Assembly (NCBI GenBank): GCA_024400275.1
Contig: JAKSMY010000045.1
Coordinates: forward strand, 1 to 16,615
Length of the DNA stretch: 16,615 nucleotides
Origin: Paludibacteraceae bacterium
GTDB lineage: Bacteria; Bacteroidota; Bacteroidia; Bacteroidales; Paludibacteraceae
Direction: 5' to 3'
Part shown: positions 1,115 to 16,615 of the stretch, piece after piece
Layout: each line of letters opens with the position of its first letter
How positions within the stretch are numbered: the stretch's first letter is position 1
Notes under the pieces: model-generated
Database searches by the model: none
Told to the model about the DNA's origin: nothing
What the model saw: the letters and a program-made list of their open reading frames with translations, nothing else
Translations under genes and position numbers: made by a program

Positions 1115-1119
1115 CAATG

Positions 1120-1164: not shown

Positions 1165-1192
1165 CTATCTTAACAATCGTCAGTCGCTCATC

Positions 1193-1213: not shown

Positions 1214-1230
1214 GTCAACCGTCAATCGAA

Positions 1231-1317: not shown

Positions 1318-1383
1318 ATAATCGTATCTCAAGAAATGGGTATCGTACATATATCCCTTCGACAGTGTATGCTATATCATAGA

Positions 1384-1438
1384 GAAATCATAAAGAAATC
1401 GTAAAGGAATCATAAAGCAATCGTAAAGGAATCATAAA
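1384..1438 (+). repeat. 11-bp tandem array, 5 copies, unit GNAATCRTAAA
   Basis: The units are gaaatcataaa, gaaatcgtaaa, ggaatcataaa, gcaatcgtaaa and ggaatcataaa. The middle triplet alternates strictly CAT/CGT, which gives a 22-bp higher-order period. The array ends 72 bp before the sigma-54-like element, at a distance where activator sites are often found. Confidence 0.85.
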
Positions 1439-1510
1439 GAAAAATCGGCTGAAATGGAGGTTTTTCGGTGGTGCTGTGGAAAAGATAGGAAAAAACGACT
1501 CGCTAAGTTT

Positions 1511-1526
1511 TGGCACACTTTTTGTA
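1511..1526 (+). promoter_or_regulatory. Sigma-54-like -24/-12 promoter for rubredoxin-ferritin
   Basis: The element TGGCACACTTTTTGTA matches the sigma-54 consensus TGGCACRN4TTGCW with one change (T for C at -12). The GG (1512-1513) and the GT in place of GC (1524-1525) are separated by the required 10 bp. Transcription would start near 1537, just before a 6-bp inverted repeat (1539-1544 with 1553-1558), about 67 bp before the rubredoxin ATG. No TAnnTTTG housekeeping promoter is visible here. Use by RpoN is an inference. Confidence 0.5.
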
Positions 1527-1603
1527 ATGGCTTTCATGAGTGAGAAATAGTGCTCACTGCAACAATTAAAACCTAATTATTTAATCTTAACAAAACAACT
1601 ACT

Positions 1604-1771
1604 ATGAAGTACCAATGTGTTTGTGGGTACATCTATGATGAAGCTGTAGAGCCCATCCGTTTCAACGATTTGCCGAAGGACTGGAAATGTCCCGTATGCG
1701 GCGCTGGTAAAGACGCTTTTACGCCCGTCTCCGACGAAAAGACCGGTAAGAAACATTGCTGTAGGAAATAG
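1604..1771 (+). CDS. Rubredoxin, short variant
   Basis: A 55-residue rubredoxin, a small one-electron carrier in which four cysteines hold one iron. The second half is classical ([20 protein letters not shown], cysteines 29 and 32). The central loop is about 8 residues shorter than in common rubredoxins, as in the short Desulfovibrio desulfuricans type. Two features are odd. The first metal knuckle reads C5-V-C7-G-Y, with one residue between the cysteines instead of two. The C-terminus has an extension ending KKHCCRK with two extra cysteines. The ATG is preceded by aacaactact, with no Shine-Dalgarno. The gene lies 101 bp before a ferritin gene, so it may supply electrons for iron uptake or release; a rubredoxin next to bacterioferritin is known in Desulfovibrio. 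Family assignment is firm; iron binding by the CxC knuckle is uncertain. Confidence 0.88.
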
Positions 1772-1773
1772 AC

Positions 1774-1828
1774 GCAATAGAGATTGATGGACATAGTCCA
1801 ATGAACTACCGAAACCAATCTCTGTTGC
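1774..1828 (+). other. Long inverted repeat with nested stem between rubredoxin and ferritin
   Basis: Arms 1774-1786 and 1816-1828 form 13 pairs with one G-U. Inside, 1788-1792 pairs with 1796-1800 (TGGAC/GTCCA, loop ata), leaving a 15-base single strand. It begins two bases after the rubredoxin stop codon. There is no following T-run, so it may be a processing, attenuation or mRNA-stability element, or a Rho-independent terminator of unusual form. This is a structure seen in the sequence without a known match. Confidence 0.5.
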
Positions 1829-1839
1829 CATTAAACCTA

Positions 1840-1867
1840 ACTCTAAACTCTAAATTCTAAACTTTAA
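1840..1867 (+). repeat. 7-bp array before ferritin start, 4 copies of ACTCTAA
   Basis: The units are actctaa, actctaa, attctaa and actttaa. The array is G-free and ends 5 bases (caact) before the ferritin ATG, so it makes up the ribosome-loading region. Confidence 0.85.
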
Positions 1868-1872
1868 CAACT

Positions 1873-2370
1873 ATGTTATCCAAGAAAATGTCTGAGGCGT
1901 TGAACGCCCAAATCAATATAGAACTCTGGTCCGCATATCTCTATTGCAGTATGTCTAATTGGGCACAAGATGCCGGTTACGAGGGTATTTCCCACTGGTT
2001 CCGCCTGCAAGCGCACGAGGAACAGACTCATGCAGAACGAATAGCCGACTATATCCGCAGCCGGGACACCAAAGTCCTCTTCCGTGCCATCGATGAGGTC
2101 CCGAACGATTGGGGAAGCCCGATTGACCTATTCCTTGATGCCGCCAAGCATGAGGAGAAAATCACCGACTGCATCAACAAACTGACGAAAAAAGCCATAG
2201 AAGAAGAGGATTTTGCCACGCAAGTTTTCTTACAGTGGTTTGTTAACGAGCAGGTTGAGGAAGAAGATTCGATTCGTGCTATTTTAACCGACTTGCGTAA
2301 GATAGGCGCATGCGAATGCGGTTGTGGACTGCATCTCGTTGACCGCGAACTCCTGCAACGCTCCAAATAA
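1873..2370 (+). CDS. ftnA: Bacterial non-heme ferritin (FtnA-like)
   Basis: A 165-residue ferritin that oxidises Fe(II) and stores iron in a 24-mer cytoplasmic shell. The ferroxidase residues match those of E. coli FtnA at the same numbers: Glu17, Glu50 and His53 (in AHEEQTH), Glu94 (KHEEK), Gln127 and Glu130, with third-site residues Glu49, Glu126 and Glu129 also present. Length is normal for the family. An oddity is the loop before the last short helix, which reads GACECGCGL, with cysteines at 147, 149 and 151 where E. coli has an acidic Gly-rich loop. It follows the rubredoxin gene and may share its transcript. The start is fixed by the ATG after the 7-bp array; there is no Shine-Dalgarno. 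The protein type is clear; the symbol is by homology. Confidence 0.93.
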   Translation: MLSKKMSEALNAQINIELWSAYLYCSMSNWAQDAGYEGISHWFRLQAHEEQTHAERIADYIRSRDTKVLFRAIDEVPNDWGSPIDLFLDAAKHEEKITDCINKLTKKAIEEEDFATQVFLQWFVNEQVEEEDSIRAILTDLRKIGACECGCGLHLVDRELLQRSK

Positions 2371-2423
2371 TTTTGGTTATATACCATTTTCAACTCTCAA
2401 TTTGCAATTTTCCATTCAAAAAA

Positions 2424-2455
2424 TTTGCATATATAAAAAAATAGTTGTATCTTTG
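2424..2455 (+). promoter_or_regulatory. Bacteroidetes-type promoter for the rimP operon
   Basis: A -33 TTTG (2424-2427) and a -7 TATCTTTG (2448-2455) are separated by 20 bp and match the Bacteroidetes TTTG/TAnnTTTG consensus. The same two boxes with the same spacing occur before the XRE gene. Transcription would begin around 2460, giving a leader of about 57 bases before rimP. Confidence 0.8.
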
Positions 2456-2469
2456 CAGTCGAATTTGAA

Positions 2470-2495
2470 TGAGGGGACCCGAAAAGGTTCCCTCA
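2470..2495 (+). promoter_or_regulatory. Leader hairpin upstream of rimP
   Basis: Positions 2470-2479 pair with 2486-2495 (10 pairs, one G-U), closed by the loop cgaaaa. It lies about 10 bases after the predicted transcription start and 21 bases before the rimP ATG, so it is at the 5' end of the mRNA. No T-run follows. It could stabilise the transcript or be a protein-binding site for autoregulation of the operon; this is inferred. Confidence 0.55.
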
Positions 2496-2516
2496 GTTCG
2501 TGCAAAATAAACCATT

Positions 2517-2930
2517 ATGATATCTGTTGAACAAGTAAAATCATTGGTGGAAAACTTCTTGAAAGACACCGATTACGAGTTGCAAACGCTTGAGATTGAC
2601 AAGGACCAGAACATCCTCGTGGAGGTGGACCGTCTCGGCATAGTAGATGTTGATTTCTGCGCCGGCCTGAACCGCTATCTGGTAGAACAGTTGGGCGATG
2701 AGGATTATGCCTTGGAAGTGGGCAGCGTCAGCCTGACCGACCCGTTCAAAACAAAAATCCAATACCAAAAGAACCTTGGACACAATGTGGTGGTGACCGA
2801 TATGGAGGGACATAAACACAGCGGACAACTTATCAGTGTAGATGAGGACACCTTCATGATTGAGTCCCAACAGACACAGACTTTCCGCTACGATGAAGTC
2901 AAAAAAGTAATCTATAACATCAATATATAA
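2517..2930 (+). CDS. rimP: Ribosome maturation factor RimP
   Basis: A 137-residue cytoplasmic protein needed for maturation of the 30S subunit. The N-terminal alpha/beta domain runs to about residue 72 and includes VDVDFCAGLNRYLVEQL..DYALEV. The C-terminal SH3-like domain begins after DPFKTKIQYQKNLGHNVVV and ends FRYDEVKKVIYNI. It is slightly shorter than E. coli RimP (about 150), as is common in this phylum. It is first in the rimP-nusA-infB cluster, which is conserved widely in bacteria, and follows the promoter and leader hairpin at 2424-2495. The stop codon is 5 bases before the nusA ATG, so the two are surely co-transcribed. Confidence 0.93.
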   Translation: MISVEQVKSLVENFLKDTDYELQTLEIDKDQNILVEVDRLGIVDVDFCAGLNRYLVEQLGDEDYALEVGSVSLTDPFKTKIQYQKNLGHNVVVTDMEGHKHSGQLISVDEDTFMIESQQTQTFRYDEVKKVIYNINI

Positions 2931-2935
2931 TAATT

Positions 2936-4192
2936 ATGGCTAAAACGCAAGAATCAATCAACCTGATTGACATTTTCTCAGAGTTCAAAGAACTCAAAAA
3001 CATCGACCGTCAGACTTTTATCAATGTCTTGGAAGACTCCTTCCGCAGTGTTATCGCCAAAATGTACGGCACCGATGCCAACTACGATGTCATCATCAAT
3101 CCCGACAAGGGTGACTTGGAAATCTATCGCAACCGACTCGTCATGGAAGATGGCGATGTGGCTAACTCCGAAAACCAAGTCGAAATAAGCGAAGCACGTA
3201 AAGTGGACCCCGAAATAGAAGTAGGTGAGGACTTTACCGACAAAGTCGAATTTGCCTCTTTCGGCAGGCGAATGATACTTAATCTCCGCCAAACACTCGC
3301 TTCGAAGATATTGGAGCTGCAAAAGGAAAACCTCTATATCCACTACTCGGATATGTTAGGTCAAGTCGTTTCCGGCGAACTGTATCAAGTGTGGAAAAAA
3401 GAAATGCTCCTTTTGGACGAGGACGGCAATGAACTATACTTGCCCAAACAGAACCAAATACCTACCGATTTCTACCGCAAAGGCGACAGCGTACGCGCCG
3501 TAGTCGTACAGGTAGATAATAAAAACCAAACACCCAAAATCATTCTTAGCCGTACCAGCCCCCTCTTCCTGCAACGGCTCTTCGAACAGGAAGTGCCCGA
3601 AGTACACGACGGCCTGATTGCCATCAAGAACATCGCCCGTATCCCGGGCGAACGTGCCAAAGTGGCTGTCGAAAGTTTTGACGACCGCATCGACCCCGTG
3701 GGCGCGTGCGTAGGTATAAAAGGTGCGCGTATTCACGGTATAGTACGTGAACTGCGTAACGAAAACATCGACGTCATCAACTATACATCCAATATCAATC
3801 TCTTTATCCAACGTGCTTTGGCTCCTGCTAAAATCAGTTCCATGACACTTGACGAAGAGACTAAACATGCTGATGTGTACCTCAAACCCGACGAGGTCAG
3901 CCTCGCCATCGGTAAGGGCGGTTTTAATATCAAATTGGCTTGTATGCTAACCGGCTACCAGATAGATGTTTACCGTGAGATGGACGAACAGGATACCGAA
4001 GATATCTACTTGGACGAGTTCAACGACGAAATCGACCAATGGGTATTAGATGCCTTCAAAACAATGGGATTGGATACAGCCAAAGCTGTTCTCGGCACAT
4101 CTAAAGAGGACCTGCTCAAAGGAACTGACCTCGAAGAAGAAACCGTTGAACACGTGTTGGAAGTACTCCAAGCCGAATTTGCAAACGACTAA
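2936..4192 (+). CDS. nusA: Transcription termination/antitermination factor NusA
   Basis: A 418-residue protein that binds RNA polymerase and nascent RNA and modulates pausing, termination and antitermination. The N-terminal polymerase-binding domain spans about 1-130. An S1 domain follows at about 140-205 (GELYQVWKKEMLLLDEDGNE). Two KH domains follow, with the first loop GIKG at 260-263 and the canonical GKGG at 326-329. The last 70 residues (DEIDQWVLDAFKTMGLDTAKAVLG..EDLLKGTDLEEETVEHVLEVL) look like a single helix-hairpin-helix region rather than the two acidic repeats of E. coli NusA. The gene is second in the operon, 46 bp before infB. Confidence 0.95.
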   Translation: MAKTQESINLIDIFSEFKELKNIDRQTFINVLEDSFRSVIAKMYGTDANYDVIINPDKGDLEIYRNRLVMEDGDVANSENQVEISEARKVDPEIEVGEDFTDKVEFASFGRRMILNLRQTLASKILELQKENLYIHYSDMLGQVVSGELYQVWKKEMLLLDEDGNELYLPKQNQIPTDFYRKGDSVRAVVVQVDNKNQTPKIILSRTSPLFLQRLFEQEVPEVHDGLIAIKNIARIPGERAKVAVESFDDRIDPVGACVGIKGARIHGIVRELRNENIDVINYTSNINLFIQRALAPAKISSMTLDEETKHADVYLKPDEVSLAIGKGGFNIKLACMLTGYQIDVYREMDEQDTEDIYLDEFNDEIDQWVLDAFKTMGLDTAKAVLGTSKEDLLKGTDLEEETVEHVLEVLQAEFAND

Positions 4193-4205
4193 GATATAAT
4201 TTATA

Positions 4206-4233
4206 ATTCAAAATTCTTAACTCAAAATTATTC
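4206..4233 (+). repeat. Degenerate 7-bp array before infB start
   Basis: Four units (attcaaa, attctta, actcaaa, attattc) end 5 bases (acatc) before the infB ATG, the same distance as in the ferritin leader. The stretch has no G. It is less regular than the other arrays. Confidence 0.55.
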
Positions 4234-4238
4234 ACATC

Positions 4239-6950
4239 ATGGCAATCAAACTCATCAAAGCTTGTAAAGAACTCAATATCGGCATGTCCACCGCCGTCGA
4301 ATTCTGTGCTAAGCAGGGCAAAGAGATAGCCACCGATCCCAATACACGTATCGATGACGACCTCTATCTGCTTCTCGCCAAGGAATTTAATAAGGACATG
4401 GCACTCAAATTAGAAGCAGAACATATCGCCCGGGAACGCCAAGAACGTGATATTCCGGCTTCTGTCAGTATCGAACCAAAGGATAAGCCCGAGCCTCAAC
4501 CCGAGCCCGAGCATATTCCTACAGAAGTGCCACAACCTAAGGTAGTCGGAAAGATAGATTTAGAGCCTAAGAAAAAAGAAGAAAAACCTCAACAGCAGGC
4601 TCAACCTGTTCAACCTGCTAAACCTGCTCAACCTGTCAAACCCGCTAAACCTGCTCAACCCGCTCAACCTGCTAAACCTGCTCAACCCGATAAACCTGTC
4701 GAACTGGCTAAAACACCGGGGGACCGCAAAGCGGAAGCAGCTGCCGGACAACAACTCAAAGTGCTCGGTAAGATAGACCTGGACTCAATAAATCAGGCTA
4801 CTCACCCCACAAAGAAAACCAAAGAGGAAAAGAAAAAAGAGCGCATCGAGCGTGAACAGCAACGCAAAGCGCAACAACAACCTGCTGCCAACAATGGTGG
4901 ACAAAACAACGGCAAAGCAGGAAATAACAACGATGGCGAAAAACGTAAACGCGAACGTATTCGTCAAGGACGTGTCGATATAAACGACGCACGCAACCAA
5001 AAAAGCGGCAAGAAAAAAGATAAACATTCTTTCAAAGTCGAGATAGATGACGAAGAGATACGTCGTAACGTCAAGAATGTAAATGCCTCCCTCAACGAAC
5101 GGCATAGCAAATCAATGACCTCTATCCACAAAAACGAACGCCGTAAACAGGAACAACAACGTCGTGAGGAGGAAAAAGCAGAGCAACAAGCCCAGTCAAC
5201 GGTTCTTAAACTTACCGAGTTTGTTACTGCGAATGACCTTGCCACCATGATGAATGTGCCCGTCACAAAAGTTATCGGCACATGTATGATGTTGGGAGTC
5301 ATGGTTAGTATTAACCAGCGTCTCGATGCCGAAACCATCAACCTTGTTGCAGAAGAGTTCGGATTTACTACGGAATATGTCAGTGCCAAAGTGACGGAAG
5401 AAATTAATGCCGACGAGGAAATAAACGAGGCTGACATCACCGAACGTTGCCCAATCGTTACCGTCATGGGTCACGTGGACCACGGTAAAACATCTCTCCT
5501 TGACCATATTCGTAATACGAACGTCATTGCCGGTGAAGCCGGTGGTATTACGCAACATATCGGTGCCTACAACGTCAAACTCAAAAACGGACGGCATATA
5601 ACCTTCTTGGACACTCCCGGTCACGAAGCCTTTACCGCTATGCGTGCTCGTGGTGCCAAAGTAACCGATATAGCCATCATCATTGTGGCTGCCGACGATG
5701 CCGTCATGCCACAGACCATAGAGGCTATCAACCACGCACAGGCTGCCGGTGTGCCTATGATTTTTGCTATCAATAAATGCGATAAACCCGGTGCTAATCC
5801 TGATAAGATTAAGGAACAACTGTCTAATATGAATATCCTTGTTGAGGATTGGGGCGGTAAATACCAATCGCAGGATATATCCGCAAAGAGTGGAGCAGGG
5901 GTCTTCGAACTGCTTGAAAAAGTGCTGCTCGAGGCCGATATGCTCGAACTCAAAGCCAACCCCAATCGTCGTGCCAAGGGCTCTATTATCGAATCTACCT
6001 TGGACAAGGGACGTGGTTATGTGGCTACTATCCTCGTCAGCGACGGTACACTTCACATGAGTGACATCGTCTTGGCAGGTACTTACCACGGTAAGATAAA
6101 AGCGATGTTCAACGAACGTGGACAGAAGATTCAACAGGCCCTGCCGGGTGAACCGGCTGTTATTCTTGGCTTGAATGGTGCGCCACAGGCAGGTGACGAA
6201 TTTAACGTCCTGCCTACCGAACAGGAAGCACGCGAAATAGCCAATAAACGGGAACAACTGCAACGTGAGCAGTCTATCCGCACCAAGAAACACCTTGGCT
6301 TGGACGAGATTGGACGCCGTCTCGCTATCGGTGACTTTAAGGAGATTAACCTTATCGTCAAGGGTGACGTAGATGGCTCTGTCGAAGCCTTGTCCGATTC
6401 ACTGATTAAACTCTCTACCGAGAATATACAAGTCAATGTTATTCACGGTGCCGTAGGTGCTATATCGGATAGCGATGTTCTGCTCGCTGCCGCCTCTAAC
6501 GCTATCATCGTGGGCTTTAATGTCCGTCCTACCGGTACGGCACGCAAGATGGCTGAGGAACAGGAGGTGGATATACGTATTTATAGCATTATTTACGACG
6601 CTATTGAGGAACTTAAATCCGCTATGGCAGGTATGCTGTCACCCGATATCAAGGAGGAAGTGACCGCCACGCTTGAAGTTCTGCAAACCTTCCACATATC
6701 CAAAGTCGGCACTATCGCAGGCTGTATAGTACGCGAAGGTAAAGCCAAACGGACCAATAAATGTCGTGTCATTCGTGATGGTATTGTCATACACACAGGC
6801 GACTTGTCTTCACTCAAACACGGTAAAGACGACATTAAGGAAATTGGACTTAACCAGGAATGTGGTTTGAGTATCAAGGCCTTTAACGATGTGGTCGAAG
6901 GCGATATGATAGAAACCTTTGAAACCGTCGAAGTAGCTAAATCGCTATAA
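4239..6950 (+). CDS. infB: Translation initiation factor IF-2
   Basis: A 903-residue GTPase that places fMet-tRNA on the 30S subunit and promotes 50S joining. An IF2_N domain lies at about 1-55. A long charged Pro/Ala/Lys/Gln linker follows to about 320, including a (A/V)-(Q/K)-P repeat from about residue 121 to 155. A second IF2_N-like domain ([16 protein letters not shown]) precedes the G domain. GTPase motifs are intact: G1 GHVDHGKT at 411-418, G3 DTPGHE at 458-463 and G4 NKCD at 512-515. Domains II, III and the fMet-tRNA-binding C-terminal barrel follow (ending [13 protein letters not shown]). It is third in the operon; its stop lies 3 bases before the next start. Confidence 0.96.
4600..4698 (+). 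repeat. In-frame 9-bp array inside infB, 11 copies
   Basis: The units are variants of ctcaacctg and ctaaacctg in perfect 9-bp register, encoding alternating Ala/Val-Gln/Lys-Pro triplets. The third codon position varies little, so the DNA itself is conserved between units. This suggests recent expansion by slippage. The same unit occurs outside any gene at 1120-1164. Confidence 0.85.
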
Positions 6951-6953
6951 AAC

Positions 6954-8360
6954 ATGACTATTCAATTTTTGGGAGCTGCCGGAGAAGTTACCGGCAGCAA
7001 ACATCTTGTTACAACCGATTCTGGCAAGCGTATCCTGCTTGATTGTGGTATGTACCAAGGTAAAGGAATGGAAACAGATGCTGCCAACCGCCAACTCGGC
7101 TTTGATCCCAAACAAATTGATTATGTCATCTTGTCGCACGCTCATATTGACCATTCGGGTCTGATTCCCTATATCTATCGTCTGGGCTTTCGGGGAGACG
7201 TAATCACTACGCCTGCTACACGCGACTTGTGCGCCCTTATGCTACTTGACACAGCGTATATTCAGGCGCAAGATATACGGTGGTACAATAAAAAAATGGA
7301 CCGCCTTCATAAACCGAAAGTGGATGTGCTGTACGACGCTAACCAAGCACAACAGTCTATCAAACACTTCGTTACTGTTGATTATGACAGGCGTTTTCAG
7401 GTTTGCGATGATGTCTTCCTTACTTTCACCAATTCCGGGCACATGCTCGGTTCGGCTGTCGTCAGTTTGGAAATACGTGAGAATAACGAATGGAAACGAA
7501 TTGCCTATACCGGCGATTTGGGACGTATTCATAGTCATATATTATGCACTCCGCAGTTATTCCCGCAGTGCGACTATCTCATTTGCGAATCAACCTACGG
7601 AGACCGCCTGCACGATGATACACTCGTTAGTGAAGAGGAATTATTGGGCGTAGTGGAAGATACTTGCGTGTATAAAAAGGGTAAACTCCTTATCCCTTCA
7701 TTCTCGGTTGGACGTACGCAAGAAATTGTCTATGTCCTCAATCAACTTTTCAACGATGGACGACTACCAAAAATAAAGGTTTATGTCGATTCACCACTTT
7801 CCGTCAATGCTACGCAGATATTCCGATTATACACCGATGCCTTGAATGAGGAAGTACAGGACACGATGCGTTTTGATGATGACCCGTTTGGCTTTTCGTC
7901 ACTGACCTATATAACGGATATTAAGGACAGCAAAGCCCTCAATAATAGCGACGAACCCTGTATTATCATATCTGCTTCAGGTATGTTAGAGGCAGGACGA
8001 ATCAAACACCATGTGGCAAATCATATCTCGGACCCTAAATGCACTATTTTAATAGTAGGGTATTGCACACCGTCTTCGTTAGGTGCACGTATTCAAGACC
8101 CTAAACTTCGTTGGGTCAGTATATTTGGTTATGACCATAAAATAAATGCACAGGTCACCAAAATAGAAGGTTTTTCCGGACACGGTGACTACCGTGAAAT
8201 GATAGATTATATCTCACGTAGCCAAAATATAGAGGCAATCCGTCGTGTTTTTATTGTTCACGGAGAATCAGCAGCACAGGAAGCCTACAAGGATCACTTA
8301 TACGAAGCGGGATTACGTGGAATTGAAATCCCGCAAAAAGGCGATATCATTCGGCTTTAA
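6954..8360 (+). CDS. Metallo-beta-lactamase-fold beta-CASP RNase
   Basis: A 468-residue protein of the metallo-beta-lactamase superfamily with a beta-CASP domain, the class of CPSF-like and TTHA0252-type exo/endoribonucleases. Zinc-binding motifs are complete: SHAHIDH at 61-67, His163 in GHMLGS, Asp188 in TGDLGR, and C-terminal His410 (GFSGHGD) and His436 (VHGES). The beta-CASP insert begins around ESTYGDRLH. It starts 3 bases after the infB stop codon, so it is almost certainly translated from the same mRNA as rimP-nusA-infB. That context suggests a role in rRNA or mRNA processing, which is inference. A hairpin follows the gene. The family is clear; the exact substrate is not. Confidence 0.9.
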   Translation: MTIQFLGAAGEVTGSKHLVTTDSGKRILLDCGMYQGKGMETDAANRQLGFDPKQIDYVILSHAHIDHSGLIPYIYRLGFRGDVITTPATRDLCALMLLDTAYIQAQDIRWYNKKMDRLHKPKVDVLYDANQAQQSIKHFVTVDYDRRFQVCDDVFLTFTNSGHMLGSAVVSLEIRENNEWKRIAYTGDLGRIHSHILCTPQLFPQCDYLICESTYGDRLHDDTLVSEEELLGVVEDTCVYKKGKLLIPSFSVGRTQEIVYVLNQLFNDGRLPKIKVYVDSPLSVNATQIFRLYTDALNEEVQDTMRFDDDPFGFSSLTYITDIKDSKALNNSDEPCIIISASGMLEAGRIKHHVANHISDPKCTILIVGYCTPSSLGARIQDPKLRWVSIFGYDHKINAQVTKIEGFSGHGDYREMIDYISRSQNIEAIRRVFIVHGESAAQEAYKDHLYEAGLRGIEIPQKGDIIRL

Positions 8361-8391
8361 TCATTTACTCTCACTTATTACCAAAAGGGTA

Positions 8392-8424
8392 GGGAAGCGT
8401 TCATAGAAAAGTGAACGCTTTTCT
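8392..8424 (+). terminator. Hairpin terminator of the rimP operon
   Basis: Arms 8395-8403 (aagcgttca) and 8412-8420 (tgaacgctt) pair perfectly with loop tagaaaag. G-U and G-C pairs at 8392-8394 with 8421-8423 extend the stem. It lies 32 bases after the RNase stop codon, with a T-rich but interrupted tail. Confidence 0.65.
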
Positions 8425-8435
8425 GTGCTGCTATT

Positions 8436-8448
8436 TGTGAATTTCACA
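8436..8448. promoter_or_regulatory. Palindrome TGTGAATTTCACA
   Basis: A perfect inverted repeat of TGTGAA around one base. It may be an operator for the XRE protein encoded downstream, although it is about 400 bp from that promoter. Confidence 0.35.
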
Positions 8449-8767
8449 TTTCTTCCATACCCAAAATTCACAACAATAAACTGCCTATACGGCACACTAT
8501 ATACAATATGTGAACTTTGAAAATACATGATTTACACTTGTGTCTGTCTGCTCTTACCTACACGCAAATAGCACGATATTTCATATACAAATCACTATTA
8601 CTCAGTATTTTATTGTAATTTATAACAAGTGTGTCTTTAATGTTTTTAGGTCATTTTTAATATCTGTCTTATAAATGCCGTATAATTGGTTATATTTTTA
8701 TATAACTTATTGATAATGAATATATAAGTACACCTACTTAAAGCGTCTGTGTACGCCACTTTTCAGT

Positions 8768-8814
8768 TGTGAATCACATCTATGTAGCAATATACTTTTC
8801 AAATGTAAATCACA
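8768..8814. promoter_or_regulatory. Pair of operator-like sites TGTGA-N-TCACA
   Basis: A perfect palindrome TGTGAATCACA (8768-8778) and a near copy TGTAAATCACA (8804-8814) start 36 bp apart, just upstream of the XRE promoter. A further half-site TGTGAA (8851-8856) falls between the -33 and -7 boxes. The arrangement fits autorepression by the XRE protein, but binding is inferred. Confidence 0.45.
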
Positions 8815-8842
8815 GATGTGTATAATTTTCTTTTGAAAATCA

Positions 8843-8874
8843 TTTGCGTATGTGAAATATTTTTCGTATCTTTG
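8843..8874 (+). promoter_or_regulatory. Bacteroidetes-type promoter of the XRE gene
   Basis: TTTG (8843-8846), a 20-bp spacer and TATCTTTG (8867-8874). Both boxes and the spacing are identical to the rimP promoter. The transcription start would be near 8879, giving a leader of about 17 bases. This places the true start codon at 8896 and excludes an in-frame upstream ATG at 8818. Confidence 0.8.
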
Positions 8875-8895
8875 CACCCAAAATTCGAATACATT

Positions 8896-9291
8896 ATGAA
8901 CGAAAGACAAAGATTACAGCAGGTCATGGAGGCTGAGCACATGACGGCTAAACAATTTGCCGAACAGGTCGGTATCAGTGCAGGTACAATATCGAATATA
9001 ATGGGAGGACGAAATAATCCCAGTTTAGATGTTTTGCAGGCGGTATTAAATCGTTTTCGTACAATCAACTCTGATTGGCTCATTCTGGGTATTGGTTCTA
9101 TGTACCGCCCTAATGGCGGACAAGACGGACCGCAAACCTCACTCTTTGATATACCCCCTGTTGAGCAGCACCCAGAACAAACTCCGGCACCTGCGCCTGC
9201 TGCTCCTAAGGCAGAAACAACAACTGTCATCGAAAAGAAAGTAGCCAAGATTGTTATTTATTACACCGATGGCACCTACGAAGAACGATAA
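8896..9291 (+). CDS. XRE-family helix-turn-helix regulator
   Basis: A 131-residue DNA-binding protein. Residues 5-65 are a Cro/C1-type five-helix domain; the recognition unit is AKQFAEQVGISAGTISNIMGGRNNPS. A flexible linker rich in Pro, Ala and Gln (about 75-108) follows. The conserved tail, KIVIYYTDGTYEER, is like the tails of many Bacteroidetes XRE proteins of this size and may mediate oligomerisation. I chose the ATG at 8896 because the promoter lies immediately upstream; the longer frame from 8818 would begin before the promoter. Palindromic TGTGA sites around the promoter suggest that it controls itself. Its other targets are unknown. It may be co-transcribed with ettA 112 bp downstream, as no promoter is visible between them. 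Confidence 0.88.
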   Translation: MNERQRLQQVMEAEHMTAKQFAEQVGISAGTISNIMGGRNNPSLDVLQAVLNRFRTINSDWLILGIGSMYRPNGGQDGPQTSLFDIPPVEQHPEQTPAPAPAAPKAETTTVIEKKVAKIVIYYTDGTYEER

Positions 9292-9292
9292 T

Positions 9293-9338
9293 AAGACCGC
9301 TATGCTGATGGAATATAGACCGCTACGCTGATGGAATA
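9293..9338 (+). repeat. 23-bp tandem duplication after the XRE gene
   Basis: Two adjacent copies (9293-9315 and 9316-9338) share the core agaccgctaYgctgatggaa and differ at only two positions. They begin one base after the XRE stop codon and are non-coding. Confidence 0.85.
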
Positions 9339-9345
9339 AGGACAG

Positions 9346-9387
9346 TCCATACTCCATACTCTATACTCCATACTCCATACTCCATAC
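9346..9387 (+). repeat. 7-bp array before ettA, 6 copies of TCCATAC
   Basis: Six units, five of them perfect and the third tctatac. The array and the 16 bases that link it to the ettA ATG contain no G. It forms the untranslated leader of ettA. Confidence 0.9.
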
Positions 9388-9403
9388 TCTAAAACAAACA
9401 ACT

Positions 9404-11080
9404 ATGTCAGACGATAAAAAAATCATTTTCTCAATGGTGGGAGTCAGCAAAACTTTCCCACCTCAAAAACGTGTACTTAACAACATATACCTTAGTTTCT
9501 TCTATGGGGCTAAAATCGGAATCATAGGTCTCAACGGTGCCGGTAAATCTACCCTTATGAAGATTATTGCCGGCGTGGAGAAGAACTACGAGGGACAGGT
9601 CGTTTTCTCCCCGGGGTACTCGGTCGGCTATTTGGAGCAGGACCCCCAATTGGACCCTTCCAAAACCGTGCGTCAGTGTGTGCAGGAGGGCGTGCAACCC
9701 ATTATGGATATGCTGCGTGAATACGACGACATCAACGCCGCTTTTGCTGACCCCGAAGCCGACTACGATAAACTGCTTGCACGCCAAGCCGAGTTGCAGG
9801 ACAAACTGGATGCTGCCGACGCTTGGAATATCGATTCTAAACTGGATCGCGCTATGGACGCGCTGCGTTGTCCTGACGACAATGCCTCTGTTGCCACGCT
9901 TTCCGGTGGTGAACGCCGACGTGTCGCCCTTTGTCGTCTGCTCTTGCAGCAACCGGATATACTGCTCCTTGACGAGCCTACCAACCACCTCGATGCCGAA
10001 TCGATTGATTGGCTGGAGCAGCACCTCCAGCAGTATGCGGGCACTGTTATCTGTATCACCCACGACCGCTATTTCCTTGACAATGTGGCAGGTTGGATTC
10101 TTGAATTGGACCGTGGAGAGGGAATCCCTTGGAAAGGTAATTATTCCTCGTGGCTTGAACAAAAAACCACCCGTATGGCTTTGGAGGAGAAACAAGCCTC
10201 TAAACGCCGCAAGACACTTGAACGCGAATTAGAGTGGGTTCGCATGGCGCCCAAAGCACGGCAGGCCAAGTCAAAAGCACGTCTCGGGGCTTATGATAAG
10301 ATGTTGAACGAGGAACAGAAAGAGCGAGAAGAAAAATTGGAGATATTTATTCCGAATGGTCCGCGTTTGGGTAATAAAGTCATCAATGCTGTTGATGTGG
10401 CTAAGTCCTTTGGCGAACGCTGCCTGTTCGAGGGCTTGAATTTCATGCTGCCTCCAAACGGCATTGTGGGTATTATCGGTCCCAACGGTGCAGGCAAAAC
10501 GACTCTTTTCCGCATGATTATGGGACAGGAAACGGTGGACAAAGGCTCATTTGAAGTGGGTGAGACGGTCAAAGTTGGTTATGTAGATCAGGTACACTCC
10601 GGCATAGACCCCGAGAAGACCGTCTTCGAGACCATCTCCAATGGTACTGACTTCATCCGCGTGGGGGGACGCGAAATATCTGCTCGCGCCTATCTCAGTC
10701 GTTTCAATTTTGCCGGTGCCGACCAAGAGAAGAAATGCGGTATGCTCTCCGGTGGTGAGCGTAATCGTCTGCACTTGGCACTGACGCTCAAGTCTGAAGC
10801 CAACGTCCTTTTATTGGACGAACCCACCAATGATATAGATGTTAATACCCTTCGCGCCCTTGAAGAGGGCTTGGAGAACTTTGCCGGCTGTGCCGTGGTC
10901 ATCAGTCACGACCGCTGGTTCCTTGACCGTATTTGTACCCATATCCTTGCTTACGAAGGCGATAGCCGCGTCTATTGGTTCGAGGGCTCGTACAGTGAAT
11001 ATGAGGCGAATAAAAAACTCCGCCTTGGCGAAGATGCCGCCAATCCCAAACGTATTCATTATAAAAAACTCATCGAATAA
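9404..11080 (+). CDS. ettA: ABC-F protein, energy-dependent translational throttle EttA
   Basis: A 558-residue ATPase with two ABC domains and no membrane segments; EttA binds the ribosomal E site and couples translation to the ATP/ADP ratio. ABC1 has Walker A GLNGAGKST at 42-50, signature LSGGE at 166-170 and Walker B ending DE at 190-191 (LLLDEPTNHLD). The basic inter-domain linker covers about 250-305. ABC2 has GPNGAGKTT at 359-367, LSGGERNRLHLA from 448 and DEPTND from 472. The end (GCAVVISHDRWFLDRICTHILAYEGDSRVYWFEGSYSEYE) is typical of EttA rather than of Uup or antibiotic-resistance ABC-F proteins, and the length is close to that of E. coli EttA (555). The ATG follows a G-free 7-bp array and no Shine-Dalgarno. 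Confidence 0.93.
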   Translation: MSDDKKIIFSMVGVSKTFPPQKRVLNNIYLSFFYGAKIGIIGLNGAGKSTLMKIIAGVEKNYEGQVVFSPGYSVGYLEQDPQLDPSKTVRQCVQEGVQPIMDMLREYDDINAAFADPEADYDKLLARQAELQDKLDAADAWNIDSKLDRAMDALRCPDDNASVATLSGGERRRVALCRLLLQQPDILLLDEPTNHLDAESIDWLEQHLQQYAGTVICITHDRYFLDNVAGWILELDRGEGIPWKGNYSSWLEQKTTRMALEEKQASKRRKTLERELEWVRMAPKARQAKSKARLGAYDKMLNEEQKEREEKLEIFIPNGPRLGNKVINAVDVAKSFGERCLFEGLNFMLPPNGIVGIIGPNGAGKTTLFRMIMGQETVDKGSFEVGETVKVGYVDQVHSGIDPEKTVFETISNGTDFIRVGGREISARAYLSRFNFAGADQEKKCGMLSGGERNRLHLALTLKSEANVLLLDEPTNDIDVNTLRALEEGLENFAGCAVVISHDRWFLDRICTHILAYEGDSRVYWFEGSYSEYEANKKLRLGEDAANPKRIHYKKLIE

Positions 11081-11146
11081 ATACCTCAACGTTTACATAT
11101 TGCTTATTGAACGTGTGCAGAATCCGTGTGTTCCCCGTGTAAAAAC

Positions 11147-11201
11147 CGGGTTGTTATCGGGTTGTTATCGGGTTGTTAACGGGTTGTTAATGGGTTGTTG
11201 A
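11147..11201 (+). repeat. 11-bp tandem array, 5 copies, unit CGGGTTGTTAT
   Basis: The units are cgggttgttat (twice), cgggttgttaa (twice) and tgggttgttga. They lie between the ettA stop and the next gene, 33 bp before its ATG. The unit has no C beyond its first base, the opposite bias to the 7-bp arrays. Confidence 0.9.
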
Positions 11202-11202
11202 C

Positions 11203-11231
11203 TTGCGTTGAACCACTTTTATGTATCTTTT
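11203..11231 (+). promoter_or_regulatory. Possible promoter giving a leaderless transcript
   Basis: TTG (11203-11205), 18 bp, then TATCTTTT (11224-11231), one base off the -7 consensus. Because the ATG at 11235 follows directly, the transcript would be leaderless or nearly so. This is a weak call. Confidence 0.25.
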
Positions 11232-11234
11232 TAT

Positions 11235-11678
11235 ATGGCACGAATTAAATATAACTTTCTGATTGATAGCGTCTCGGGTAAGTTCTGTAGGAAAGAGCAC
11301 AATGGGACTATTCAACGCCAAAAGCATTTTCGTGATGAAAACGGCAACATTATTGGCGAAGGAGTAAATGAATCGTTTTCTTATCTGAACCCTCGGGATT
11401 ATCGTAAGAACCCGCCTCATGGTGAGGAGGCACGTAATGTCTCTGTTTTTGGTCAGGCGGTGAAGCTTGCCAAGGTTGAGCGTGCTAATCCGGAACGCCT
11501 TGCTTATTGGACGAATCGTTGGCACCGGCAGTTGAAGAAAGGCGAATCGGATGCGCCGCTTAACCCTGAAACGGGCCAACCTCGTATTTACCGTCGTCTT
11601 GACTTGTTTATTCAAACGGTCATTCAGCGTGAACTCAAAGCCGGCACGTGGAACACTACGCCTCCCTCAGAACTGTAA
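11235..11678 (+). CDS. Hypothetical basic protein
   Basis: I do not recognise a named family. The product is 147 residues, basic, soluble, with no signal peptide or membrane segment. It starts MARIKYNFLIDSVSGKF, a beta-hairpin-like opening that I have the impression is common in small Bacteroidales proteins. A polar middle with GNIIGEG and NPRDYRKNPPHGEE follows. The end is helical (ERLAYWTNRWHRQLKKG; YRRLDLFIQTVIQRELKAG). I chose the ATG at 11235; an in-frame TTG at 11208 would add nine residues but overlaps the candidate promoter. It lies between ettA and the TamB fusion, 53 bp before the latter, and could be transcribed with it. No function can be assigned. Confidence 0.7.
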   Translation: MARIKYNFLIDSVSGKFCRKEHNGTIQRQKHFRDENGNIIGEGVNESFSYLNPRDYRKNPPHGEEARNVSVFGQAVKLAKVERANPERLAYWTNRWHRQLKKGESDAPLNPETGQPRIYRRLDLFIQTVIQRELKAGTWNTTPPSEL

Positions 11679-11731
11679 AATTTGAGAAAATGATGTAGAA
11701 TATTTGTGTATTACAAAATTAAAACAAGCGC

Positions 11732-14700
11732 GTGAAGCATAAAAAACGGCTTATATGGATTATTCCGACCGCTATAATAGGTACGGTCTTTGCCCTTTTG
11801 TTGCTTGTATTAGGGCTGTGCTCCGTGCCGTCTGTTCGGAAGAAAATATTGGACAAAGGTGTAAGCATAGCTGCTGAGAAGACGGGCTATGATATTCAAT
11901 TGGACGATCTCTATATTTCCGTTTTTCACCAGTCGCCGATGTCCTTGTTCCGTGATTCGTTGGTGGTTGAAATAGATGGTTTGTTTATTGGACATGCTTC
12001 GCAAGACACACTAGTGTCTTTTCGTCATTTATCTTTACATGCTTTGCCGTTGGCCTTGGAGTGCAAGCCTTTCTCTATTTATCTGCGCGACACTATTCCA
12101 GTGTATAGTCTAACGTTGGACGATGCCGTTCTGCACACGGATAGTATGATTGATGCTTGTACGGTAGATGCTTCTTTCCGTCATCTGTATCTTACCAGTC
12201 CGGGTATTGTGTTAGATGGAGGTCAGTATCCTTTGCATGATTTACACTTGGCACAAGCCGATGTAGCCGTCACGTTGCATGATACGCCTATAGATTCCAC
12301 GATGGTAGATACAACGGCTCTACAATTGGCATTTGATGTACCGGACGGGCAGTTAGATACTATCCGTTTTCGCTTACAACCGATGGGATTGGATATAGCA
12401 ACCCAATCGCTCCGCACATGCGCTTTAGCAGATGTTGGTGGCGAACTGTATGCGGTATCTCATATCGCTTTAGGAACGTCAAGGATAGGTTTTGGCGATT
12501 TCTCCATACCGATAGATACCTTGTATGGAGATGCTAACGTGAACCTTGCCAATCAACTCATCACTACCGATGGACTACATGTTAGTTGCGATTCATTGGA
12601 TGCCCAAGTGGATGTCAAAAGTACCCGCTTTGATATGGAGACGATGGAGACACGTTTTGCAGCAGACGCCACGATGCAAGGCAATGCGTTGACGGCACGA
12701 GGGATGTACAATATCAACACCGAACAATATGACCTGCAAGCCGACTTGAAACATATTGACCTCTCTCCTTTCCTGTCTAATCCAACGCGCACACTCTTTA
12801 CCGGTTCGCTGAAAGCGCAAGGACAAGGTTTGGACTATAAGTCACGCCAAACACGCAGTCATGTCGTGCTGGATCTTCCAAACTGTATCTACGACAGCAT
12901 AGACGCTTCGGGCATTCAGTTAGATGCCCAATTAGTCAGACACACGCTGTCCGGCGATTTGCACTTACCTGTTTCCTATAAAGATTCTGCCTTTTCCGCA
13001 CAAGTAGAATCGGAGAATCAGTTCCGTATTATAGAATTATTTTCCAAGTACCCACAAGTGGATTATCACACCCATTTGCAACAACTGCAAGCACATATAG
13101 CTGATGAGCAAGTCACGGTTCCGTTTATGGATCTTGATTTCCAAACGGACTCGGCAACGCAATGTCATCTTGTGGCAGATAACTTAGATGTGCATGTTCA
13201 AACGCCCCAACACCTCCTGTCTTTCTTGCAGGCGGTGCCGCCGTTGATGACCACCGTAAGTGATTCCGCTACGATAGGAGGTATTATGTCCTGTACCGAT
13301 TTGACTTTAATCGACACGTTGCGTAATCTTCTTCCCGCACTCACGGCACGTGTCAAAGTCAATCATAATAGTGTGGTGCAACCTTTCTTGGATAAATACG
13401 GCTTGGACATCAATTCCTTAGACCTGTCTCTTTCTTCGGACACTACCGGCACAACATTGCTGACCGATATTTCTATTCCTGCGTTGGAGCCGGAAGACAC
13501 AACGGCACTGCGCCTGCCTACAGCAGATGCTCATATAGAAGTAGTTTGCCAACCTTCTACCACAGATTTGACTATTACTTCTTCCGCAGGCATGACAGAC
13601 GGGCTATTATCTATGCACAACATCTGCACCGACCTCACCCTCAACACGCATATACACCGTCATGAACACGATTTAACGGGTAGTGGTTCTATTTTGTTTG
13701 ACAGTATAAACATTGGAGCGACTGATTTAGGCAATCAAGCCATCACCTTCACTCTTGAGCCTTCGCCCAATTATCACAAAGGGGCATTCAGCGTGCAAGC
13801 CCAATTAGATGATATCTCGTTGGATTTGGTAGATAGTTTATTATCCGTACCTGAATTGGACTTGAACGGTTATCTCCGCACGGCTGTTACTTTAGACGGA
13901 CTGCCATCATCAACAGATGTGTCAGCCCAAGTGCTGCCGATAGAGGTAAAAGCCAAATATCAGCCCCTTGAAGCAGAACTGTCGTTAGGCGAGATACCTA
14001 TCACAATGGAGCATAACCAAATACATCTGAATGGCTTGCCCATCTATGGCGTAGATAGCTCATACCTCGCTTTGTATGGCGGATTTGACTTGGATTCACT
14101 GGCTGTGGATATAACGTTTGAATCGGATAGTTTTGCCCCTCTGCGTCTGCTACAAGGCGGTCCGCTACTTATCTATGGAGATTTTGCCACTGCTCTTCGC
14201 GGACGTGTATCCGGACCGGTTGACCATCTTGCCACACAAGCCGATGTCACCATTCTGCCAATCACGAATCTGACGTATCCTATCGATGCGAAAAACTTGG
14301 CACAGGTCAACCCACAAGGTACGGTTCGTATCACCTATGCCGACAGTCTGCAATTAGGAGGCGAAATAGTGATTAACGACGGTTTGGTCAAGTACTCACC
14401 CAAAGCCTATCCGATGATGCCTTTCCGTGTGGACTCCGGCAGTTATATACGTTTTAATGGACCTGTCGGTGCAACAGAAATGGCAGTATCAGCCTCTCAA
14501 CAAATCAAAGCCAGCGTACAAACTGCCAATGAGGATTCACGGCGAGTCGAATTTAACACCGGCGTTAGTATTCATGGACAACTGGATTCGATAGGTATTC
14601 ACTCCATTGATTTCTTTTTGGAAGCCCCCAAAGATGAACGTATTACACAGGAGTTAAACACTGTCTCTGTCGAGGATCGTGAGGGATTAGCAGCCACTTT

Positions 14701-16438
14701 GTTGGCCACCGGTATGTATGTCGGTGAAAGCAATGTGGCAACACAACAAAGTGGTTATGCGTTGTCCAGTATTGTCAATAGCAAGATTAACGCCGCTATG
14801 GCTAATTCCAAAGCCGGAAAGGTGGTGGATATAGACATCAGTTCCGGAGAAAAAATGCATAATAATAATGTCAAAAGTCAAGACTTGGGACTGACTATCA
14901 GCAAATCGTTCCTGCAAGATAAACTTAAAATCACGGTAGGCACTTCCTTGTCCGACAATCCGCAAGTAAACAAAACCTACGGACTGCTGAATAATATCAG
15001 TGCCGATTATAAACTGACACCTAAGGGTGGGGTATTGCTTCATCTCTTTTCTAAACGTGATTTTGATAATGTATTAGAAGGCGAGTTATACAAGTCCGGC
15101 ATAGGTATTCGCGCCACAAAAGATTGGAAAAAACTCCGCCGAGACTCACTCGCCTATACGTATAGTCTGACAGGCGATTGCGATGTCGTCTATCGCAGCA
15201 ATAACTCTATCGGACCGGACGCAAATATCATATTTGCTATTCGTAACCTCTGGGGAAACGGCGAAACATTTTCTATACGTTATAAATGTGCTTATTATTG
15301 GTCATTACGCAAACGTTTTTCGGGAGATCCTACAAACAAAAATACATATAAACTGGGAGCCGATATGGCACTTACTTTCCCGTATTTGCATTGGTTAGGA
15401 GACCATAATCCGGAGGGGAACACACGGTATCTGTTCGGCTACCAATACGAGAATATAGCCGGCGGCTATTCCGTACATAAATACTATGCGTCGTTCTCTT
15501 ATCTCATTCGCTCCGGACAATTCATCACACACTCGTTCACTCCGTTCTCTCTTTCCGTTATACAGATGAAAGCCTCTGATGCCAATTTGACGGATAAGGC
15601 TGCCGACTATCCACAACTTATAGCGGTGCTTGCCGGAGACGAGTTTGTGCCTTCTATCGAATATAGTTTGGTTTACGATAATTACCGCACCAAACGTGCC
15701 GTTAATACGTTCTTTGACTGGGACATTAAGGAATCCGGTAATATCATCAATGGTCTTTTCTGTGCTTTTGGACATGATTGGAATAAAAAAGATAAAAAGA
15801 TTGGGGCAGTCATTTTCAATCAGTTCGTCAAAACCAGTCTTGAACTGCGTAATAAGTTCAATCTAACGCCAAAAATATGTTTCGCCACACGGCTATATGC
15901 GGGAGCTGTTATTCCAATTGGCAATTCCGAATTTGCTCCTTTATCTGAAAAATACTACACCGGTGGTCCGAATAGTTTGCGTGCAGCTTCCCCGTACGCA
16001 TACGGACCCGGCAATTTTTATAGTCCTAAATATAACCAATCGTTTTTCCATGCTGGTGATATACGCCTCGAAGCCAATGTCGAATTCCGTTTCCCTATTG
16101 TGTGGAAACTATACGGTGCTGTCTTTGCCGATGTGGGAAACGTTTGGAATTGGGAAGACACATGGAAAGTAGCAGAGCGAACAGGTCAGACTGATTTGGT
16201 TAAAAAATTCGAGATTAGAGACGATTTAAAAGACGGTATCCGTGTTGAGACCTTGGGCAAGCAGTTAGCGCTCGGAACGGGATTTGGTTTACGTTTAGAC
16301 ATTGAGTCTATTGTTATCCGTTTAGATTTAGGAGTAGCCATTCATGCTCCTTACGCCACCGGTAAATCCACTTATTATAATATCCCCGATACCAAGGACG
16401 GCTTCCGCTTCAATTTCGGCATCGGTTATCCTTTCTGA
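11732..16438 (+). CDS. TamB domain fused to a TamL/BamA-like outer-membrane barrel
   Basis: A 1568-residue envelope protein. Residues 6-28 are one hydrophobic helix after MKHKKR, an inner-membrane anchor. A long beta-rich AsmA/TamB-like region follows, ending in a TamB C-terminal (DUF490) domain at about 815-1137 (REGLAATLLATGMY; LGLTISKSFLQDKLKITVG; NVLEGELYKSGIGIR). From about 1141 the chain continues as a BamA/TamL-type barrel (FAIRNLWGNGETFSIR; LTFPYLHWLGD; YYTGGPNSLRAASPYAYGPG; DIRLEANVEFRFPIVWKLYGAVFADVGNVW; LALGTGFGLRLDIESIVIRLDLG), closing with a terminal Phe. TAM normally uses separate TamB and TamA/TamL proteins to insert outer-membrane proteins and move lipids; here no POTRA domains or lipoprotein signal are present. 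The start is GTG, fixed by an in-frame TAA at 11720-11722. The domain calls are by pattern recognition. Confidence 0.88.
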   Translation: MKHKKRLIWIIPTAIIGTVFALLLLVLGLCSVPSVRKKILDKGVSIAAEKTGYDIQLDDLYISVFHQSPMSLFRDSLVVEIDGLFIGHASQDTLVSFRHLSLHALPLALECKPFSIYLRDTIPVYSLTLDDAVLHTDSMIDACTVDASFRHLYLTSPGIVLDGGQYPLHDLHLAQADVAVTLHDTPIDSTMVDTTALQLAFDVPDGQLDTIRFRLQPMGLDIATQSLRTCALADVGGELYAVSHIALGTSRIGFGDFSIPIDTLYGDANVNLANQLITTDGLHVSCDSLDAQVDVKSTRFDMETMETRFAADATMQGNALTARGMYNINTEQYDLQADLKHIDLSPFLSNPTRTLFTGSLKAQGQGLDYKSRQTRSHVVLDLPNCIYDSIDASGIQLDAQLVRHTLSGDLHLPVSYKDSAFSAQVESENQFRIIELFSKYPQVDYHTHLQQLQAHIADEQVTVPFMDLDFQTDSATQCHLVADNLDVHVQTPQHLLSFLQAVPPLMTTVSDSATIGGIMSCTDLTLIDTLRNLLPALTARVKVNHNSVVQPFLDKYGLDINSLDLSLSSDTTGTTLLTDISIPALEPEDTTALRLPTADAHIEVVCQPSTTDLTITSSAGMTDGLLSMHNICTDLTLNTHIHRHEHDLTGSGSILFDSINIGATDLGNQAITFTLEPSPNYHKGAFSVQAQLDDISLDLVDSLLSVPELDLNGYLRTAVTLDGLPSSTDVSAQVLPIEVKAKYQPLEAELSLGEIPITMEHNQIHLNGLPIYGVDSSYLALYGGFDLDSLAVDITFESDSFAPLRLLQGGPLLIYGDFATALRGRVSGPVDHLATQADVTILPITNLTYPIDAKNLAQVNPQGTVRITYADSLQLGGEIVINDGLVKYSPKAYPMMPFRVDSGSYIRFNGPVGATEMAVSASQQIKASVQTANEDSRRVEFNTGVSIHGQLDSIGIHSIDFFLEAPKDERITQELNTVSVEDREGLAATLLATGMYVGESNVATQQSGYALSSIVNSKINAAMANSKAGKVVDIDISSGEKMHNNNVKSQDLGLTISKSFLQDKLKITVGTSLSDNPQVNKTYGLLNNISADYKLTPKGGVLLHLFSKRDFDNVLEGELYKSGIGIRATKDWKKLRRDSLAYTYSLTGDCDVVYRSNNSIGPDANIIFAIRNLWGNGETFSIRYKCAYYWSLRKRFSGDPTNKNTYKLGADMALTFPYLHWLGDHNPEGNTRYLFGYQYENIAGGYSVHKYYASFSYLIRSGQFITHSFTPFSLSVIQMKASDANLTDKAADYPQLIAVLAGDEFVPSIEYSLVYDNYRTKRAVNTFFDWDIKESGNIINGLFCAFGHDWNKKDKKIGAVIFNQFVKTSLELRNKFNLTPKICFATRLYAGAVIPIGNSEFAPLSEKYYTGGPNSLRAASPYAYGPGNFYSPKYNQSFFHAGDIRLEANVEFRFPIVWKLYGAVFADVGNVWNWEDTWKVAERTGQTDLVKKFEIRDDLKDGIRVETLGKQLALGTGFGLRLDIESIVIRLDLGVAIHAPYATGKSTYYNIPDTKDGFRFNFGIGYPF

Positions 16439-16615
16439 TAGTATGAATTGTATGTCAGCAATGTCAGCATTTTTCAATTAGTTGATTAAGGTATATATCC
16501 CGTCTGATTTCCTTCATATATATTCACTTACTGAAAATTTTTGCAAAAATATGACTTTTTTTTATTGTTGTCCGGTAAAAGTTGAAGATTTAAGATAGTT
16601 ACAAAAAAATCGGGC
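16439..16615. other. Non-coding tail after the TamB fusion
   Basis: These 177 bases contain two adjacent copies of a 9-bp unit (tgtcagcaa and tgtcagcat, 16453-16470), AT-rich sequence, and a possible promoter (16540-16570). No clear terminator hairpin follows the fusion gene. The window ends before any new start codon that I can support. Confidence 0.5.
16540..16570 (+). promoter_or_regulatory. Possible Bacteroidetes promoter for a gene beyond the window
   Basis: TTTG (16540-16543), a 19-bp spacer and TATTGTTG (16563-16570), which differs from TAnnTTTG at one position. Transcription would start near 16576 and run off the right edge. Confidence 0.4.

Follow-up and report, generated by a model that had tools for sequence, protein, structure and literature searches.

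A reading frame joining TamB to a TamL-type Omp85 barrel in Paludibacteraceae: a candidate one-piece TAM lacking POTRA domains

Can the two proteins of a translocation and assembly module (TAM), TamB and its Omp85-type barrel partner, be encoded as one polypeptide, and how would such a chain work? The question is raised by contig JAKSMY010000045.1 of a Paludibacteraceae bacterium (assembly GCA_024400275.1), analysed here over positions 1-16,615, a stretch referred to as the window. One gene, at positions 11732-16438, encodes a 1568-residue protein with TamB-like sequence in front and a TamL-type barrel behind. A sequence-only reading of the window had proposed a fusion spanning the cell envelope, with TamB in the place of the POTRA and lipoprotein parts of TamL. 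A fusion bears both on the role of the hybrid TamB/Omp85 barrel (a working or a side state) and on that of the POTRAs in TAM. We find the fusion and its ancestry to be directly observed or well supported. As to function, we favour, at a probability of roughly 60%, a POTRA-free one-piece TAM2 with a covalently wired hybrid barrel, acting mainly as a lipid-groove bridge.

One open frame in many genomes

The frame is open throughout, as the sequence-only reading had it. A protein search returned 651 relatives at E ≤ 0.001, and the best 120 of these, of 1450-1700 aa, gave a set of 121 rows consisting of the window protein twice and 119 others. All 121 rows span the junction in one profile alignment and end in GYPF. 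Both junction motifs were found by regular expression in 101 rows, the other 20 being missed by the pattern. An N-terminus resembling a membrane helix is present in 114 rows, and most of the other seven look like late start calls. Ten relative names among the best 120 comprised eight Paludibacteraceae, one Bacteroidales and one hypothetical protein.

A scan of genome contigs located the fusion in Bacteroidales bacterium UBA7009 (locus L001) as one 1604-aa frame with 50% identity. This genome, G001, was the centre of the genus sample and was also included in the family and order samples. The fusion was matched in 37/61 genomes of the genus sample, as a single frame of 1483-1680 aa in 33 and incomplete or split between contigs in four (G142, G163, G165 and G176); it was present in 6/120 family-sample and 5/393 order-sample genomes. 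No fusion was matched in 24 of the 61 genus-sample genomes, three of which lacked any match, and these absences are weak evidence as genome completeness was not given. The fusion gene occurs frequently in one genus of Bacteroidales and in some of its kin, and the idea of a one-off occurrence falls away. An assembly or frameshift artefact joining two genes can be dismissed: the same join is present in other assemblies, all 121 rows span it, and more than half of the genus-sample genomes carry it in one frame.

The GTG start is supported by a 69%-identical gene in G135 (L102), which begins at the same position with MKSKKRLIWIIP. What follows has the traits of TamB and AsmA-like proteins, namely a membrane helix and then a long beta-rich predicted groove. 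The helix, also anticipated by the sequence-only reading, was placed at residues 5-30 by AlphaFold2 (AF2) with a low predicted local distance difference test score (pLDDT; 46-57 over residues 1-20 and 57 over residues 21-30), and the Kyte-Doolittle 19-residue maximum of 2.68 begins at residue 14. Unfused TamBs align along the TamB part up to the motif LEGE...G.G. In the window protein this part scores below the cut-off of the Pfam TamB model (PF04357), and the same part passes in three of seven fusions searched (59.5-69.1 bits; cut-off 22.4).

At the other end, a Pfam search matched Omp85 (PF01103) to residues 1172-1568 across the full profile (positions 1-325, E 2.9e-18). This complete C-terminal barrel domain, characteristic of the Omp85 superfamily, has 16 strands in an AF2 model of residues 800-1568, and structure comparison showed the predicted barrel to resemble TamA crystal structures. 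A phmmer search with the whole protein against PDB sequences returned only TamA (E 0.45-0.49). Positions 335-747 of the 747-position lipo_TamL model (NCBIfam NF052279) align to residues 1143-1568, corresponding to the TamL barrel; the whole-protein score of 331.8 bits lies below the 400-bit cut-off. Positions 1-334, which cover the lipoprotein and POTRA part, were unmatched in the window protein. This part is therefore absent, in agreement with the original proposal. A TamL-type lipoprotein signal was not found: the chain opens with the membrane helix, its N-terminus aligns with TamB, and alignments to unfused relatives show the TamL lipobox region to be missing at the junction. A crude lipobox pattern hit 44/121 homolog rows within the first 35 residues, which we take as chance matches inside the hydrophobic helix. 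At the level of one open reading frame, TamB is thus physically joined to an Omp85 partner, as expected of a TAM.

The junction and its origin from adjacent genes

The nearest unfused relatives are mostly adjacent pairs, in which a TamB frame of ~1490-1620 aa is followed by a TamL frame of ~770-850 aa. Among 16 pairs (12 near, 4 far), starts could be set in 10; their gaps range from -47 to +90 nt, and 7 of the 10 overlap. The TamB and TamL frames of L085 lie ~0.85 kb apart. A lipobox cysteine stands 335-339 residues ahead of the barrel match in 9/12 near pairs; the pattern found none in 3 of the 16 pairs (L080, L082 and L092) and gave an odd match in L091.

A profile of the junction was run over 395 genomes of the phylum, with up to nine first-look candidates scored per genome. 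It matched end to end in G001 only. Another 47 genomes match it partially, up to positions ~52-69 in TamB-sized frames or from ~62-76 in barrel-sized frames, with both partial matches on one contig in 11 of the 47; in G339 the TamB-side and barrel-side parts are 1130 nt apart. In unfused relatives the profile breaks between window residues ~1135 and 1143, so that the junction called from the sequence at residues 1137-1141 was right to within a few residues. Aligned to the junction, the TamBs of near pairs end ...LLEGEITETGAGIVLRKK followed by a short charged tail, and unfused barrels begin ...VYDLPLDGELELNITAKSN. Since the unfused ends align there, the fusion retains the C-terminal strand of TamB and strand 1 of the barrel but not the stretch between them: ~340 residues, comprising the lipid anchor and POTRAs, are replaced by a short turn, of five residues in the window model.

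The AF2 model predicts a strand-turn-strand arrangement at the junction. In its local numbering (window residue = local + 799), DSSP assigned helices in the TamB C-terminal domain to 170-178, 181-194 and 210-226, plus a short one at 278-283, and strands to 234-244, 248-261, 266-275, 289-295, 302-314 and 318-336; pLDDT was only 50-61 across 201-260. The motif LEGELYKSGIGI starts at residue 1115, just ahead of the last of these strands, whose LEGE part is shared by the fusions and most of the unfused proteins compared. Across 19 fusions, residues 800-1568 have a mean column identity of 78%, with many invariant residues.

Trees were built for both halves. The barrel tree comprised 16 of 22 fusion loci plus the window, 20/25 near-pair, 5/5 far-pair and 20/31 solo loci, and the TamB tree the window, 16 fusions and every available near pair (12), far pair (4) and solo TamB (18). 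"Solo" denotes no TamB frame in the flank examined, mostly up to 1.5 kb and ~0.25 kb for L008. A TamB end lies upstream in 21 of the 25 near-pair barrels, and also in L083 and L085 in longer stretches; L071 and L072 were counted as near pairs in the barrel tree, and their available flank shows no TamB end. In the barrel tree the 17 fusions form one clade (support 100) adjoining the 20 near-pair TamLs (joint support 94), and the 20 solo TamLs form a separate group (100). In the TamB tree a single clade (100) again holds the 17 fusions; it lies with the 12 near pairs, and a split supported at 100 separates both from the 18 solo TamBs and the 4 TamBs of far pairs. Which of the near pairs is sister to the fusions is only weakly indicated (support 13). 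These are quick trees with hand-chosen rows, near pairs found by likeness to the query and long fusion branches (1.53 and 2.68). Both halves group with adjacent pairs and therefore fit one join of one neighbouring pair; among the sampled genomes the fusion apparently arose once. Derivation from solo TamB and TamL genes is favoured by neither tree. The family sample also contains adjacent TamB-TamL pairs of a second class (L092, L093, L095 and L097; TamB ~1650 aa), which are more distant and which both trees place outside the group of fusions and near pairs.

By gene order and overlap, the adjacent pairs resemble and are probably equivalent to the TamB2-TamL2 operon of Bacteroidota, the Flavobacterium johnsoniae sequences standing outside our trees. 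In that organism tamB2-tamL2 (Fjoh_1899-Fjoh_1900) can be dispensed with, and the authors describe its function as unknown (PMC12045153). The fusion shares with TamB2-TamL2 its gene order and two domains, and groups with operonic pairs in both trees. TamB2 and TamL2, however, are two proteins, TamL2 being a lipoprotein with three POTRAs, whereas the fusion is one chain with a shorter TamB body and neither lipid anchor nor POTRAs (PMC12045153).

The fusion does not replace the cell's only TAM. G001 encodes a separate TamL (profile 2-747, 645.8 bits) and a separate TamB (a 1395-aa frame, 178 bits). A separate TamB scored above cut-off in 7/7 fusion genomes tested, TamL was matched over the whole profile including its POTRA part in 6/6 family-sample fusion genomes, and 35/37 fusion genomes of the genus sample carry a TamL-type barrel gene apart from the fusion (none in G136 and G139). 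As both genes persist in fusion genomes, the possibility that the fusion is the only TAM was rejected.

A proposed lipid bridge and its alternatives

We propose that a deletion of ~1.1 kb in neighbouring tamB2- and tamL2-like genes took away the short tail of TamB along with the TamL lipoprotein signal and POTRAs. The last β-strand of TamB would thereby have been connected to the first strand of the TamL barrel by a short turn on the periplasmic side. The N-terminal helix would remain in the inner membrane, the TamB groove would span the periplasm and the predicted 16-strand barrel would sit in the outer membrane, giving a single chain of probable two-membrane topology. Provided that strand 1 of Omp85 proteins begins at the periplasmic side and that the partner's last strand runs the opposite way, the turn would lie in the periplasm, and the geometry fits. 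The contact of the hybrid barrel, in which TamB's final strand lies on strand 1 of Omp85, would become permanent and intramolecular through the join, and this could render the POTRAs unnecessary. A dedicated lipid-groove bridge would be expected over an insertase because strand 1, the edge used by clients, would be occupied by the chain's own TamB strand.

This contact has a precedent in E. coli, where strand 1 of TamA is paired with the final strand of TamB and TamB strands fold into the lumen; the authors associate phospholipid transport with the hybrid state and outer-membrane protein (OMP) insertion with a semi-closed one, find hybrid and non-hybrid states at ~1:1, and report that POTRAs are needed (PMC12800296). 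The TamB part of the fusion likewise has predicted C-terminal helices and six strands and would set the last TamB strand beside Omp85 strand 1; E. coli TamA and TamB are two proteins, whereas here the contact would be covalent. The sequence-only suggestion that TamB stands in for the POTRAs is thereby sharpened: what would take their place is a link between TamB's last strand and strand 1 of the barrel, at the site of the E. coli contact. In a model of Borrelia burgdorferi, six C-terminal TamB strands complete the BamA barrel at strand 1 (PMC13382580). TamB strands meet strand 1 there as well, but this hybrid of TAM and the β-barrel assembly machinery (BAM) is a model of two proteins, with no fusion, in which BamA keeps its POTRAs. 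A fuller picture, held tentatively and as somewhat short of probable, is an always-connected dedicated lipid bridge in which one chain carries an inner-membrane helix at one end and the outer-membrane barrel part at the other, forming without POTRAs a permanent hybrid barrel of up to six TamB and 16 TamL strands; the main task of POTRAs elsewhere would then be to deliver TamB to strand 1.

Several observations weigh against the lipid-bridge reading. The presumed pairing of the TamB strand with barrel strand 1 is deduced from predicted secondary structure. Position 1127, hydrophobic in unfused TamB, varies and is often Arg in the fusions, and the last strand has to this extent changed. As anticipated from the sequence, the TamB body is shortened, by ~340-430 residues relative to near pairs, which makes its reach across the periplasm uncertain; compared with the example L084, ~170 and ~140 residues are absent at two places, as judged from unaligned stretches. 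A TamB profile gave no match to PDB sequences, and a fold search with residues 1-830 gave middling, mixed beta-protein matches: Foldseek placed LptD at the top and TamB (9xdd_B) at rank 30 (E 0.21), and Z scores (CymA porin 11.5, ApoB 10.2, OspA 9.5, LPD-3 8.1, Vps13 7.6, Atg2 7.4) were mostly near a level that may reflect only a common arrangement. Low-confidence stretches of this model include residues 108-120, 763-781 and 800-823. In E. coli, deletion of POTRA 2 is lethal and deletion of POTRA 1 or 3 harms growth (PMC12800296), so a POTRA-free TAM must work differently. As for lipids, TamL depletion in F. johnsoniae gave no major lipid change, a result that concerns the other TAM (PMC12045153).

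We regard as unlikely, though deserving consideration, a protein-handling TAM whose barrel is closed by pairing of its own strands 1 and 16 and carries TamB as a tether, inserting a few OMPs with the tether doing the docking of the POTRAs. The complete predicted 16-strand barrel and its likeness to TamA structures would suit this arrangement, and E. coli TamAB aids Ag43 insertion (PMC12800296). However, a turn as short as that in the window model would set the last TamB strand beside strand 1, the POTRAs that usually handle clients are gone, and TamL depletion in F. johnsoniae, again of the other TAM, did not lower barrel OMPs overall (PMC12045153). Cleavage of a precursor at the junction, giving TamB and a POTRA-less barrel that work as two proteins, is improbable: the junction loop is charged and of variable length, but it is also short, and the strands on both sides of it are conserved. 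A degenerate, non-functional TAM2 relic is more improbable still. The unmatched genomes of the genus sample and the dispensability of TamB2-TamL2 in F. johnsoniae (PMC12045153) point that way; against this, the frames are stop-free over 1483-1680 aa in 33/61 genomes, the C-terminal part is strongly conserved, and the absences may be missing sequence.

No report of a TamB-Omp85 fusion was found in the literature searched, which did not reach preprints and most subscription journals. The words "fused" and "fusion" are absent from the text of PMC12045153, PMC4494059, PMC11014939 and PMC13382580, and "fused" from PMC12800296; PMC4104836 mentions "fusion" once, for a BamA-BamB-like protein, and PMC8151025 has "fused" three times, never for TamB. 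Omp85 proteins with unusual N-termini (WD40, metalloprotease, patatin, noNterm) similarly carry a different N-terminal partner on one chain, but no subfamily named in section 10 of PMC4104836 has a TamB domain. A natural fusion at the E. coli contact site, kept across many genomes, is independent support for that contact being functional, and offers one gene in which lipid transport and OMP insertion could be told apart. If the chain is anchored in both membranes, it would also bear on biogenesis, with Sec and BAM acting on one polypeptide, and on inter-membrane distance.

Features of the gene and its neighbourhood

Table 1 Features of the fusion gene in the window
Feature	Position	Strand	Evidence
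Whole gene: single-chain TamB + Omp85 barrel, 1568 aa, GTG start, TGA stop	11732..16438	+	Open frame without interruption; G135 gene start; junction profile alignment
N-terminal hydrophobic helix, residues 5-30 (probable inner-membrane anchor)	11744..11821	+	AF2 model; Kyte-Doolittle
Beta-rich TamB body, residues 54-968 (predicted groove)	11891..14635	+	AF2 strands from residue 54; stretch partly inside Pfam TamB match of three other fusions; alignment to unfused TamB
TamB C-terminal domain, residues 969-1135, helices then six strands	14636..15136	+	DSSP of AF2 model
Last TamB strand, residues 1117-1135	15080..15136	+	AF2 strand local 318-336; aligned to LEGEITETGAGIVLRKK, end of unfused TamBs
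Junction turn, residues 1136-1140; TamL lipid cysteine + POTRAs (~340 aa) absent here	15137..15151	+	AF2 model, junction profile, near-pair comparison
Omp85/TamL barrel, residues 1141-1568, 16 predicted strands, ends GYPF	15152..16435	+	
Barrel strand 1, residues 1141-1155, presumed hairpin partner of last TamB strand	15152..15196	+	AF2 strand local 342-356

A tblastn comparison of nine further genes of the window with nine fusion loci returned matches for two of them only: the leucine-rich repeat (LRR) gene, matched many times in L108 and once in L111, and the gene for translation initiation factor IF2, matched once and weakly in L111. The gene order of the window is therefore not shared. The matches in L108, at 4010-8101, lie just upstream of its fusion gene (8705-13486), and the LRR gene is ~10 kb away from the fusion in the window. 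This BspA-type LRR gene (39-1114, +) is apparently split into overlapping frames at 39-353 (signal-peptide-like start, no Pfam match) and 350-1114 (LRR_5), and appears to be a broken gene or a product of slippage or sequencing error. Just upstream of the fusion, a 156-aa frame (11208-11678, +) lacks matches both in Pfam (at E 0.001) and, by tblastn, in the nine fusion loci; between it and an ABC-F gene, 4.8 copies of the 11-base unit CGGGTTGTTAA occupy 11147-11199. Further upstream, a rimP-nusA-infB cluster (2517-6950, +) is followed by a gene for a beta-CASP nuclease of the metallo-beta-lactamase fold (6954-8360).
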